Source: Brucella pseudogrignonensis
Lineage (GTDB): Bacteria > Pseudomonadota > Alphaproteobacteria > Rhizobiales > Rhizobiaceae
Length of the DNA: 64,000 nucleotides
NCBI RefSeq assembly: GCF_002252525.1
Contig: NZ_NNRM01000006.1
Coordinates: 186,001-250,000, forward strand
Direction of reading: 5' to 3'
Shown: in pieces, positions 45,262 to 64,000 of the stretch
How the letters are laid out: every line of letters begins with the position of its first letter
Position numbering within the stretch: the first letter of the stretch is position 1
Position numbers and translations under genes: made by a program
Notes under the pieces: model-generated
The model's database searches: none
What the model saw: the letters and a program-made list of their open reading frames with translations, nothing else
Told to the model about the DNA's origin: nothing

Positions 45262-45290
45262 ATGTCATAAAACTGTCACATATCTTTCAC
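45262..45290 (+). promoter_or_regulatory. Putative Pho box upstream of the Na/Pi cotransporter gene
   Basis: Three heptamers with an exact 11-bp period: ATGTCAT (45262), CTGTCAC (45273) and CTTTCAC (45284), each separated by 4 AT-rich bases. They match the PhoB box consensus and lie 148 bp before the start codon of a phosphate transporter gene. Confidence 0.75.
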
Positions 45291-45437: not shown

Positions 45438-47114
45438 ATGAACGGTTCTCTTGTCCTTTTGCATCTTGCTGGTGCTGTTGCTCTCCTTCTTTGGGCGACC
45501 CGCATGGTGCGAACGGGTGTGGAGCGCGCCTATGGTGATCGGCTACGCCGTCGTCTGCGCAATCAGATGCAGAACCCGCTGCTGGCGATAGCCTTCGGCC
45601 TTGTCATGGCAATTGCCCTGCAAAGTTCCACCGCAGTCACACTTTTGGTCGGCTCTTTTGTCGGATCAGGCATTGTGAGCGGCGTTGCGGGCTTGATGGC
45701 TGTGCGCGGCGGCGAACTTGGATCGGCGCTTGTCGTCAAGATCCTGAGCTATGATCTGACCTTGCTTGTGCCGCTCTGCCTTGTTTCAGGCACCGCCATT
45801 TTCATGACCACCGAGCGACGGGACTGGCGCCAGATTGGCCGCATCCTCGTCGGCATCGGCCTGCTCATCATGTCTCTGGAAATGACAGGACAGGCCACCG
45901 AGCCGCTGCGTCAGAGCGAGCTTCTGCCAATTATCGTAGATTATCTCTCCAGCGATCCGGTGACGACCTATCTTCTGGCCGCACTGATGACCTGGTTGTT
46001 CCATTCGAGCATTGCAGGCGTCATCCTGCTGACCACATTCGCGTCCCGTGGACTAATCACGCCCGAGCTTGCAGTTATCATGGTGCTGGGTGTCAATCTC
46101 GGCTCGTCCATTATTGCCCCAATTCTGACCCGCAACGCGCCACCCGAAACTCGCGTCGTCCCGCTCGGCAATTTGCTGATGCGCGGTGCAGGTTCGATGA
46201 TCATGCTGGTGCTGTTTGAAAGCTTCAAGCCTTCGCTCGGCTTCCTCGGCGGCGACCCTGTCTCGCAGGTGGTCAACGCGCATATCCTGTTCAATGTCAT
46301 CATCATGCTTGCGGGCATTCCATTGTCCGGCCTGGTTCTGCGAGCGACAGAAGCATTGGTGCATCTCAACTCGGACAAGAATGCCCCCGTTCAGCCAATC
46401 GAGGTCGAAGAATACAGCGCGCTCGACAATGCCGTGCTCGACCGTCCTTCGCAGGCGCTTGCCAATGCAACGCGCGAAGTTGTGGGCGTCTGCGACACGA
46501 TTGAAGTAATGCTGCGCCGCATTATCGACCTTTACGAGAAGCCGGATCAGGCACGTATTAATGAACTTGCAGCACTCGATGACCGGGTCGACAAGAAACA
46601 TGCGGCGATCAAGCTTTATCTCACCAGGCTTGCAAGCAAGGATCTTGATGAGTTTGAAGCGCTCCGTATGCAGGAGCTGATGGGTGCCTGCGTCAAGCTC
46701 GAACAGGTCGGCGACATCATCGTCCGCAACATGCTTGCGCATGTGCAAAAGAAGATGGACCACAATCTCGAATTCACCGAGGAAGGCTGGAAGGAACTGA
46801 GCCACTTCCATGCCATGGTGCTGGCCAACGCGCATATGGCTTTCAACGTGATTGTTTCGCGTGATGGTCGCACGGCGCGCCTGCTGGTGCAGGAGAAGGA
46901 CAATCTGCGCGATCTCGAAAAGCAGACGAGTATGCGTCACTTCTCGCGCCTTCGCGAAGGCTCAACGCGCAGTATCGAAACAAGCACCATCCATCTCGAC
47001 ACCATTCGCGATCTCAAGCAGATTAATTCATTGCTGGCATCGATGGCATATCCGGTTCTCGAAGAACAAGGACTGCTCAGTGCAACCCGCTTGAAGACAG
47101 CGAAACAAAGCTAA
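45438..47114 (+). CDS. Na+/Pi cotransporter family protein with PhoU-like domain
   Basis: A 558-residue membrane protein. The N-terminal 300 residues contain two Na/Pi-cotransporter II repeats, each with the QSSTA-type motif: MAIALQSSTAVTLLVGSF and LFHSSIAGVILLTTF, plus LGVNLGSSIIAPIL. About residues 330-540 form a PhoU-like helical bundle, as in the NptA/YjbB group. It should move phosphate across the inner membrane; direction is debated for YjbB (export) and relatives (import). The Pho-box array upstream argues for a role under phosphate limitation. AAAGGAG lies 5 nt before the start, and a terminator follows. Confidence 0.92.
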   Translation: MNGSLVLLHLAGAVALLLWATRMVRTGVERAYGDRLRRRLRNQMQNPLLAIAFGLVMAIALQSSTAVTLLVGSFVGSGIVSGVAGLMAVRGGELGSALVVKILSYDLTLLVPLCLVSGTAIFMTTERRDWRQIGRILVGIGLLIMSLEMTGQATEPLRQSELLPIIVDYLSSDPVTTYLLAALMTWLFHSSIAGVILLTTFASRGLITPELAVIMVLGVNLGSSIIAPILTRNAPPETRVVPLGNLLMRGAGSMIMLVLFESFKPSLGFLGGDPVSQVVNAHILFNVIIMLAGIPLSGLVLRATEALVHLNSDKNAPVQPIEVEEYSALDNAVLDRPSQALANATREVVGVCDTIEVMLRRIIDLYEKPDQARINELAALDDRVDKKHAAIKLYLTRLASKDLDEFEALRMQELMGACVKLEQVGDIIVRNMLAHVQKKMDHNLEFTEEGWKELSHFHAMVLANAHMAFNVIVSRDGRTARLLVQEKDNLRDLEKQTSMRHFSRLREGSTRSIETSTIHLDTIRDLKQINSLLASMAYPVLEEQGLLSATRLKTAKQS

Positions 47115-61726: not shown

Positions 61727-61766
61727 CTGTCATGAAACTATCATGGCACTGAATCTGACTTGTCAC
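61727..61766 (+). promoter_or_regulatory. Putative four-unit Pho box array upstream of the plcP-like operon
   Basis: Heptamers at an exact 11-bp period: CTGTCAT (61727), CTATCAT (61738), CTGAATC (61749, weak) and TTGTCAC (61760). The first two match the PhoB consensus in 7/7 and 6/7 positions. The array ends 100 bp before the TTG start of the phosphodiesterase gene. Confidence 0.78.
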
Positions 61767-61866
61767 AGAAGAGGCATAGAAGCCCTCGCAAGGCCGCAGC
61801 CATCCTTTTTGAATGCCGAAACGGCACATGCTGCAGCGCACCCCTTATCCAACAAGGAGCGCCATC

Positions 61867-62718
61867 TTGCGTATCGTCCAGATTACCGACACCCACCTCA
61901 GCCCAACCAAGTCGCACTTCAACAGCAATTGGGCACCCCTTGTTGCGTGGATTGAAGAACAAAAGCCGGATCTCATCATTCACACCGGCGACCTGACGGT
62001 TGACGGTGCAGATATGGAAGCGGATCTCGCTTTCTGCCGCGAACGTATCGCCGAACTTACCGCCCCTGTGCTGAGCCTTCCCGGCAATCACGACATCGGC
62101 CACCTGCCCGGCAGCCATCAACCTGTCAACATGCAGCGCCTGAAGCGTTGGCGTGATCATTTCGGGCCAGACTACTGGGCTAAAGATCTCGGCGACTGGC
62201 GCGTCATTGGGCTTAACAGCCTGATTATCGGTGCTGACTCCGCTGAGGAAGAAGAACAGTTCCAATGGCTTGAGGCAGAGCTGAATAACAGCGATGGCAA
62301 GCCTGTTGCTATTTTTGCGCATAAGCCGGTTTTCGTCGATCAGCCAGATGAAGGGGACACGGGCTACTGGGGTATTCGTCCCGCTCCACGTCAGCGCCTC
62401 TACGATCTGTTTGCCGCCAATAATGTAAAGCTTCATGCAAGCGGCCATCTTCACCGCGCATGGGCTGGGGAAGCTTATGGTACAAGCTATATCTGGGCAC
62501 CGGCAGCAGCATTCATCGTGGGCGCCATGGAACGTGACCTGCCCGGTGAGCGTATTCTGGGAGCAGCTATCCACGACCTCGGCGAAACAGTAAAAAGTGA
62601 AATCGTCCGTATTGAAGAGCTTACACCTTACGTCATTGATGATGTGGTGCATGAAGTCTATCCGCATCACACCGGCGATGGTGAGGCGGAAAAGCTTGCT
62701 GAGGAGGCTACTCAGTGA
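61867..62718 (+). CDS. plcP: Metallophosphoesterase, PlcP-like phospholipase C
   Basis: A 283-residue cytoplasmic calcineurin-type phosphodiesterase. All metal motifs are present: ITDTHLS (DxH), IHTGDLT, LPGNHDIGH, FAHKPVF and SGHLHRAW (GHxH). The family includes CpdA, GpdQ and rhizobial PlcP; PlcP of Sinorhizobium meliloti cleaves phosphatidylcholine to diacylglycerol and phosphocholine under phosphate limitation. The PhoB-box array and a following sugar-phosphate-type ABC transporter favour PlcP over cAMP phosphodiesterase. The TTG start has AAGGAG 7 nt upstream, and homology begins there. It overlaps the next gene by 4 nt. Confidence 0.8.
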   Translation: MRIVQITDTHLSPTKSHFNSNWAPLVAWIEEQKPDLIIHTGDLTVDGADMEADLAFCRERIAELTAPVLSLPGNHDIGHLPGSHQPVNMQRLKRWRDHFGPDYWAKDLGDWRVIGLNSLIIGADSAEEEEQFQWLEAELNNSDGKPVAIFAHKPVFVDQPDEGDTGYWGIRPAPRQRLYDLFAANNVKLHASGHLHRAWAGEAYGTSYIWAPAAAFIVGAMERDLPGERILGAAIHDLGETVKSEIVRIEELTPYVIDDVVHEVYPHHTGDGEAEKLAEEATQ

Positions 62719-63893
62719 GCACGCTTGTCCTTCGCGATATCAGCAAGTCTTACGGCAACAATCAGATCCTTGACGGTATTTCCATTGAGGCCGCAGAAGG
62801 CGAGTTTATTGCACTCGTGGGTCCGTCAGGTTGTGGCAAGAGCACGTTGCTGCGCATTCTAGCAGGCCTTGATCACGCCGATGAAGGCAGCATTGCCATT
62901 GCCGGACGCGATATCACAGGCGCCCATCCTGCTGACCGCAACATGGCGATGGTCTTTCAATCCTATGCACTTTATCCGCATTTAACGGCGGCGCAGAACA
63001 TCGCGGTTCCTCTTGCCATGCGCGATATGACCACTCTGGAACGCTTTCCACTGGTCGGCGTACTCGTTCCGGGGCAACGCAAGAAGCGAGCAGCCATCCA
63101 AAAGCAGGTCAAAGCGACAGCGACCAGCCTTAAAATCGATCATCTGCTTGATCGCAAGCCGGGCCAAATGTCGGGTGGCCAGCGCCAGCGTGTTGCGCTT
63201 GCCCGTGCTCTTGTCCGTCAGCCCGGCGCGTTTCTAATGGATGAGCCGCTGTCCAACCTCGACGCCAATCTGCGTGTTCACACCCGGGCGGAAATCGTGG
63301 AGCTACATCGCCGCGCCGGCGTGCCGACAATCTATGTAACGCACGATCAGGCTGAAGCGCTGAGCATGGCCGACCGTGTGGCTGTCATGATGGGCGGTAA
63401 GCTACTGCAGATTGATACGCCAACTGCGATCTATAATGATCCAAAACATATTGAAGTCGCTCAGTTTATCGGCACACCGCGCATCAATATCCTTGACGCT
63501 CTGGTGAGCGACAATGGCATCGTCCATTTTGCTGGCCGCGCGATACTGCAAGGCATCGCGGCACATTCTGGCACGCAAATCCGCGTCGGCATCAGGCCCG
63601 AACATTTCCGCATCGTTCCACACGACAGAACCGGTATCACTGCCACGGTTTCGCGGATTGAGTTCCTGGGCTCGGAAGTGTTGATCTATGTAAAAGCTCC
63701 CGGCGCGTCACAGGATCTCACAGTCAAGCTTGATCCCGCGAACGCAAAACATATTGCAGCGGGCCTCGCCGTTGGCCTGCATTTTGATGCAGACAACGCC
63801 TATCTTTTTGGCGACGACGGTCTGCGTCTGCGTCAACCCGCCGGGAATGCAATACAACTTGCCCCGCGGGAAAAGGCGCCAGCTCATGTCTGA
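62715..63893 (+). CDS. ABC transporter ATP-binding protein, UgpC/MalK type
   Basis: A 392-residue ATPase of the sugar and glycerol-3-phosphate import class. Walker A GPSGCGKST, the Q-loop FQSYALYPHLT, signature MSGGQRQRVAL, Walker B FLMDEPLSNLD and His loop TVTHDQ-type VTHDQAEAL are all intact, and a MalK-type OB domain occupies the last 140 residues (GIRPEHFRIV). An extra segment of about 20 residues (ERFPLVGVLVPGQRKKRA) sits before the signature, where MalK/UgpC proteins usually have none. It starts with GTG, overlapping the phosphodiesterase stop. Operon position suggests import of a phospho-compound (inference). Confidence 0.9.
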   Translation: MSTLVLRDISKSYGNNQILDGISIEAAEGEFIALVGPSGCGKSTLLRILAGLDHADEGSIAIAGRDITGAHPADRNMAMVFQSYALYPHLTAAQNIAVPLAMRDMTTLERFPLVGVLVPGQRKKRAAIQKQVKATATSLKIDHLLDRKPGQMSGGQRQRVALARALVRQPGAFLMDEPLSNLDANLRVHTRAEIVELHRRAGVPTIYVTHDQAEALSMADRVAVMMGGKLLQIDTPTAIYNDPKHIEVAQFIGTPRINILDALVSDNGIVHFAGRAILQGIAAHSGTQIRVGIRPEHFRIVPHDRTGITATVSRIEFLGSEVLIYVKAPGASQDLTVKLDPANAKHIAAGLAVGLHFDADNAYLFGDDGLRLRQPAGNAIQLAPREKAPAHV

Positions 63894-64000
63894 CGCCGCT
63901 CTTCCTCACACGGGTTTAACCAACGCTCGCACGGCTGCAGAAAAGGCACGCCGGCGTGAAGAACGCCTTGCCTGGAAGCTTGCGGCACCGGCCATTCTCC
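63886..64000 (+). CDS. N-terminus of an ABC transporter permease, UgpA/MalF type (partial)
   Basis: The first 38 codons of a gene running off the window. A polar basic N-terminus (AEKARRREERLAWKL) leads into a hydrophobic helix (AAPAIL), the start typical of MalF/UgpA-type permeases. It overlaps the ATPase gene by 8 nt, so it belongs to the same operon. The rest of the transporter should lie just outside the window. Confidence 0.75.
   Translation, partial: MSDAALPHTGLTNARTAAEKARRREERLAWKLAAPAIL

Follow-up and report, generated by a model that had tools for sequence, protein, structure and literature searches.

What does a phosphoesterase do beside an ATP-binding cassette (ABC) importer of the sugar type, and which molecule would the two share? 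The question is raised by a five-gene operon at the end of a 64,000-nucleotide stretch of Brucella pseudogrignonensis DNA (contig NZ_NNRM01000006.1, positions 186,001 to 250,000, part of contig C49 of the 5.5-Mb genome), hereafter the window. The genes encode, in order, a phosphodiesterase, an ATPase, two permeases and a binding protein; the end of the window cuts the first permease gene, leaving two genes and most of a third outside it (Table 1). A sequence-only reading had seen here a four-unit Pho box and a PlcP-like enzyme whose released head group is salvaged by the adjacent transporter. We think it fairly probable that the operon is a module under Pho control for the import of a small phosphodiester, which a cytosolic phosphodiesterase then splits inside the cell. 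The salvage proposal is thereby kept in its pairing of a phosphoesterase with an importer, in an order retained in 78 of 80 loci, and in its predicted Pho control; its PlcP identity is given up.

Four heptamers precede the operon in steps of 11 bp: CTGTCAT at 61727, CTATCAT at 61738, CTGAATC at 61749 and TTGTCAC at 61760, with 0, 1, 4 and 2 mismatches to CTGTCAT, respectively. For scoring we used the 18-mer CTGTCAT-N4-CTGTCAT, which we take to be the Pho-box consensus. The pair at 61727 is the sole 18-mer with at most one mismatch on either strand of the 64-kb window, where chance would give 0.05 one-mismatch matches (20 Markov shuffles). Across 17 loci of the Brucella group, units 1, 2 and 4 average 1.35, 0.82 and 1.12 mismatches. 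Unit 3 averages 5.12, close to the 5.36 for any heptamer of the same regions, and the averages are unchanged when the register is fixed by units 1 and 2 alone. Because unit 3 lies at this background level, we regard three units as real and the third place as holding no consensus unit. The positions and the 11-bp spacing of the earlier reading are thus exact, while its array of four equal PhoB units is reduced to units 1, 2 and 4.

The box is conserved upstream of most orthologs. We scored one strand over 300 bp upstream of the enzyme gene in 80 orthologs: 14 hold an 18-mer with no more than two mismatches, 30 one with no more than three and 67 one with no more than four. Since the orthologs are related and some matches (L063, L064) fall outside the usual position, these counts express conservation and not 80 independent trials. 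The corresponding numbers were 0.06, 0.64 and 5.8 for shuffles of these sequences, and 0, 0 and 1 of 80 for 300-bp coding-DNA controls. At least five mismatches were found in 13 of the 80, including the four Inquilinus and the R. leguminosarum types. Elsewhere in the genome, Pho-like repeats precede pstS with one mismatch and both ugpB and plcP with three; a consensus scan gave no assignable box at the phosphonate-type binding-protein loci L116 and L118. A three-mismatch box lies ~100 bp ahead of the enzyme in L107, and the operon promoters of L119, L120, L121, L122, L123 and L124 have no box within two mismatches. The same is true of all but two of the 14 distant loci L126-L139, the exceptions being L126 and L131 with one-mismatch boxes in their promoters, and a scan up to three mismatches found none at the paralog loci L172 and L173. 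The PhoB box in the promoter, by which Pho-regulon membership is judged, is thus present by match to the consensus that we assumed, and the operon is very probably under Pho control and on when phosphate is short.

Separately, the window holds a second likely Pho box (ATGTCAT, CTGTCAC and CTTTCAC in 11-bp steps, 45262-45290), ~150 bp upstream of an open reading frame (45438-47114) that by eye encodes a Na/Pi cotransporter-like protein with a PhoU-like part.

The first gene of the operon encodes a metallophosphoesterase with all metal ligands present, as had been claimed; the overlap of the genes, the MalK/UgpC-type ATPase and the permease were likewise confirmed. The nearest enzyme fold is that of the glycerophosphodiesterase GpdQ, whose two-metal ligands the protein also has, and hydropathy revealed no signal-peptide-like segment. 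The product is probably a cytosolic GpdQ-like phosphodiesterase. Since the enzyme has no such segment, the imported molecule is more likely to be its substrate than its product, and the idea that the transporter takes up a head group released by the enzyme is not upheld.

The transporter is UgpB-like in its binding protein but is, by its sequence, not Ugp. The window ATPase scores 370.7 bits with the UgpC model (cut-off 432), the binding protein scores 83.2 with the UgpB equivalog model (cut-off 411), and the permeases also fall below Ugp cut-offs. A separate true Ugp operon is present in the same genome, with a UgpB at C42 that scores 497.7. Residues that hold phosphate in UgpB are kept in all 29 family members aligned (Ser266 is Thr in 26), whereas the glycerol-holding side chains Glu88 and Arg393 are replaced in all 29. 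The replacements were seen in three MAFFT alignments, among which the Glu88 column shifts; at the Arg393 place HMMER aligns Gln387, not Thr386. Together with the missed cut-offs and the separate Ugp operon, these replacements rule out membership in Ugp proper. The ligand is probably not glycerol-3-phosphate; it would be a small organophosphate, most likely a phosphodiester.

Two kinds of phosphodiester have to be weighed. The ligand could be a glycerophosphodiester (e.g., glycerophosphocholine, -ethanolamine or -inositol), in which case deacylated phospholipids would be the source and the operon a second Ugp equipped with a GpdQ-type enzyme. The solved folds closest to the binding protein point this way: those of UgpB from M. 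tuberculosis, for which a structure with glycerophosphocholine has also been solved, and from E. coli. So do the GpdQ fold of the enzyme and the Roseomonas copy, which adjoins a PlcP-family gene. Yet the glycerol-holding side chains, replaced here throughout, are still present in a glycerophosphocholine-binding protein (PMC12718374), and we consider a glycerophosphodiester possible but doubtful. The alternative, a glycerol-free phosphodiester (for example a dinucleotide or a sugar phosphodiester), would fit a pocket that retains the phosphate residues and has lost the glycerol residues. The first PDB match by single sequence is 7c1b (E 1.4e-18, level with UgpB at 3.1e-18), the like-named 7c0y is titled a dinucleotide-binding protein, and a Thermus dinucleotide binder lies near UgpB (PMC12718374). 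In addition, the paralogs L172 and L173 adjoin a sugar-type regulator, with rhamnose-type genes in L173 (by eye). However, UgpB and not the 7c1b protein ranks first by profile, and the case is one of sequence, so that a ligand of this kind is again a possibility that we hold with reserve. Somewhat less hesitantly, but still tentatively, we propose that the binding protein represents an unnamed, widespread UgpB-like branch that kept the phosphate grip and gave up its hold on glycerol. Paired with a GpdQ-like, PHP or HAD phosphoesterase encoded alongside, it would scavenge a phosphodiester other than a glycerophosphodiester (a dinucleotide or a sugar phosphodiester, for instance), and in many rhizobia and the Brucella group it would do so under PhoB control.

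The pairing of enzyme and importer recurs well beyond the genus. The order enzyme-ATPase-permease-permease-binding protein is found in 78 of 80 loci; L035 stops at a contig edge and L026 has no transporter. In enzyme relatives at 37-42% identity the partners are often together in a changed gene order. Allorhizobium ampelinum S4 and R. ruizarguesonis have the binding protein, the enzyme and then a PHP-type phosphatase, Pseudosulfitobacter has a divergent layout, and in Roseomonas a PlcP-family gene and a methyltransferase gene are neighbours. Exceptions are Rhizobium sp. 007 (L123), where the enzyme is beside an ABC set of another type, and Dietzia (L124), where it is ~4 kb from the ABC set. 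The enzyme (E 1e-20) is present in 29 of 249 genomes of an order-level sample, and 12 of these 29 have a strong binding-protein match within ~5 kb by hand count. Among 14 loci picked from this sample, eight have an enzyme relative near the ABC genes; the other six lack one there, and in two of them a PHP-type gene stands instead. Single distant loci have a PitA-like, PPK2-like or PstS-like neighbour (by eye). Starting from the binding protein, relatives lie in operons with a phosphodiesterase in Phaeobacter inhibens (one locus opened, with a metallophosphoesterase gene behind the binding-protein gene), Phyllobacterium zundukense and Cupriavidus campinensis, the latter two also with a HAD hydrolase; no phosphodiesterase was found in the corresponding operon of Nitratireductor (L165). 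On a Rhodococcus plasmid a metallophosphoesterase lies with an ATPase, a binding protein and permeases. Ten of 95 plasmid records with the enzyme were examined for gene context, and 20 loci, one of them this genome's own, had too little flank for their neighbours to be judged.

The paralogous operons L172:870-8190 and L173:752-8095 encode a HAD hydrolase, the enzyme (48-49%), the ATPase, permeases and a binding protein. Two tandem binding-protein genes stand behind one transporter in L126:6847-9411 and L127:6846-9498, followed in L127 by a PstS-like gene.

Within the genus, the coupling is not strict. Among 35 genomes searched, 29 have the enzyme and 24 the binding protein. Five have the enzyme without a binding-protein match; one of these, G542, is 69% complete, and the other four (L168, L169, L170, L171) were opened. 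In all four the enzyme gene lies between aat and the lysR/trxB-side genes and the transporter is absent. L026 and G537 have identical enzymes, and L026 forms one group with these four on the enzyme tree, where a single change suffices in 78% of bootstrap trees. A clade of the genus has lost the four transporter genes and kept the enzyme and the Pho box at the same site: the metal ligands are intact, and the heptamers stand upstream in the same layout (best pair two or three mismatches). Because the clade kept both after the loss, the enzyme behind its own box seems useful without its transporter, and its substrates there perhaps enter by Ugp or arise inside the cell. This single loss speaks for a third view, in which the enzyme's phosphodiester is formed in the cytosol or imported by Ugp, the adjoining transporter having another purpose or only adding to the supply. 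The persistence of pairing with the same ABC type in rearranged orders, at many distant loci, makes that view rather improbable as an account of the operon.

Could the enzyme be a cyclic-nucleotide phosphodiesterase of the CpdA type? It shares the wider class with CpdA (32% identity over 151 residues), but it scores 47.8 bits with the CpdA model (cut-off 225) and 40.6 with the model of the 2',3'-cyclic phosphodiesterase SpdA (cut-off 400), has a conserved ABC partner, and lies outside CpdA in the tree, where the forks are weak; GpdQ itself joins CpdA and long branches in a fork of weak support. Both equivalog cut-offs having been missed, we rejected these identities, and a CpdA-type enzyme is very unlikely. 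The clustering with cyclic AMP phosphodiesterases that would have told against the earlier reading was not seen in this tree with its weak forks.

The PlcP identity was rejected as well. For S. meliloti, sinI and sinR are given as SMc00168 and SMc00170 (PMC5596199) and the phospholipase C as SMc00171 (PMC3596328). In an 8.9-kb stretch of an S. meliloti record, which has an acyl-homoserine lactone (AHL) synthase gene and a LuxR gene, the only metallophosphoesterase-like gene found is L106:3986-4831, annotated as UDP-2,3-diacylglucosamine diphosphatase, with a malic-enzyme-like gene between (by eye). We took this gene as PlcP on the strength of the sinI/sinR cluster and the locus tags. It belongs to a different family from the window enzyme and is 61% identical to a 285-residue protein encoded on another contig of this genome (L093:4594-5451), where malic-enzyme-like and dipeptide-epimerase-like neighbours are common to both species (by eye). 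Against three PlcP sequences the window enzyme gives blastp E values of 0.007 to 1.4, none of its matches to this family is better than E 0.003, and the tree splits the two with support 100/100. Thus, although the superfamily and the Pho box are in keeping with an intracellular phospholipase C for lipid remodelling, the separate family and the ortholog elsewhere leave the enzyme next to no chance of being PlcP. Because PlcP works intracellularly (PMC3972451), an importer is not needed to collect its head group in any case.

The PlcP ortholog of this genome overlaps a glycosyltransferase-like gene 3' of it (L093:4594-6509), with a three-mismatch Pho-like repeat upstream. In other genomes, too, plcP is reported often to precede a glycosyltransferase gene (PMC4796936), and the two are likely a lipid-remodelling pair. 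For S. meliloti plcP, a scan of 490 bp before the gene (one strand) found nothing better than four-mismatch box matches. The S. meliloti record itself (L106, CP090106.1) is 3.7 Mb long, is labelled pSymB, carries the AHL synthase/LuxR pair and plcP, and has the malic-enzyme-like frame near plcP split; its label is probably wrong because the Rm1021 counterparts bear SMc tags.

We return to the import and cleavage of a small phosphodiester as the reading that we favour. In low phosphate, PhoB would bind the box and turn on the five genes. The periplasmic UgpB-like protein would grip a phosphate-bearing molecule, and the two permeases with the UgpC-like ATPase would carry it in, as family and pocket residues suggest. 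From its fold and metal ligands, the two-metal GpdQ-type enzyme is predicted to cut the molecule in the cytosol to an alcohol and a phosphomonoester. Phosphate might then be freed by other phosphatases of the cell; a PHP or HAD phosphatase is encoded beside the set in several relatives.

Table 1. Features of the operon. Coordinates are window positions; features outside the window are placed in locus L009.
Feature	Coordinates	Strand	Comment
Putative PhoB-binding site, heptamers at 11-bp spacing	61727..61766	+	close to the consensus at places 1, 2 and 4 but not at place 3
AAGGAG ribosome-binding site	61854..61859	+	7 bases ahead of TTG start
GpdQ-like metallophosphodiesterase, 283 aa, TTG start, probably cytosolic	61867..62718	+	
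UgpC/MalK-type ABC ATPase, 392 aa, GTG start	62715..63893	+	4-base overlap with preceding gene
UgpA-like permease, 310 aa	63886..64000	+	first 115 bases in window; complete at L009:3887-4819
Permease 2	L009:4830-5651		outside window
UgpB-like binding protein	L009:5693-6958		outside window

At the enzyme's start, the 80 orthologs have ATG (32), TTG (24) or GTG (24). The enzymes of Brucella rhizosphaerae and B. pituitosa are 86-87% identical to it, which assigns the organism to the Ochrobactrum group, today classed within Brucella. On the far side of the binding-protein gene lie a LysR-type gene and trxB on the opposite strand.

Which forms of organic phosphorus are open to soil and marine bacteria is for the most part judged by the known transporters, such as Ugp, Phn and Pst. 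If our proposal is right, an importer that now carries only the annotation of a sugar ABC transporter serves to scavenge phosphorus, and the annotations of rhizobia and their relatives would change; the changes in the pocket point to the ligands worth testing first.

How does the operon compare with systems already described? In search listings of open-licence papers, none was seen that names it or assigns it a role, which agrees with the suggestion that the arrangement is undescribed in this genus; on the other side, a similar-looking Phaeobacter set is listed as induced by phosphate starvation. In a table of PMC10132767, a predicted phosphodiesterase (MED193_11288, 3.55), a sugar ABC binding protein (MED193_11293, 4.03) and a sugar ABC ATPase (MED193_11308, 5.47) are raised under phosphate starvation. 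In the phoB mutant the enzyme and the ATPase are undetected, and the binding protein is still raised (3.27) but makes up 0.01% rather than 0.47% of protein. A term search of that paper's main text found these tags only in the table, which gives them, as unnamed Pho-regulon proteins, neither name nor substrate. The tag order fits the Pseudosulfitobacter layout, the likeness being one of annotation and order. No Phaeobacter is among the 40 listed of 92 records; binding-protein relatives were found in P. inhibens. Uptake of xanthosan by XanT-XanP (PMC12807533) is alike in importing a phosphodiester and hydrolysing it in the cell, and unlike in using a TonB-type transporter and a 2H phosphoesterase rather than an ABC importer and a metallophosphoesterase. 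PlcP of S. meliloti shares the superfamily and Pho control and differs in family and in its separate locus here.

GpdQ of Enterobacter and Klebsiella is the nearest enzyme fold and likewise belongs to an ABC operon of the sugar type. In Klebsiella, a plasmid protein that shares 92.6% identity with 121 residues of the crystallised GpdQ is encoded between two permeases and an ATPase (L162:4115-9237), adjoining genes of inositol catabolism, a neighbourhood that might point to glycerophosphoinositol as the ligand there. Since Klebsiella GpdQ is encoded within such an operon, an importer with a GpdQ-type enzyme is a recurring kind. The resemblance is a distant one: the enzymes are 27% identical over 173 residues and the binding proteins 26%, the Klebsiella binding protein keeps an Arg at the Arg393 place, and the Klebsiella copy lies next to inositol genes.

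Closest in plan is Ugp, which we take to consist of UgpBAEC with the phosphodiesterase UgpQ in its operon. Both combine a carbohydrate-type ABC importer, a cytosolic phosphodiesterase and Pho control, and the binding proteins share a fold and the phosphate-holding residues. In the window operon, unlike Ugp, the binding protein has lost the glycerol-holding side chains and scores below the Ugp cut-offs, and the phosphodiesterase is a metallophosphoesterase. The module would thus resemble UgpBAEC and UgpQ with an unrelated phosphodiesterase in the place of UgpQ.
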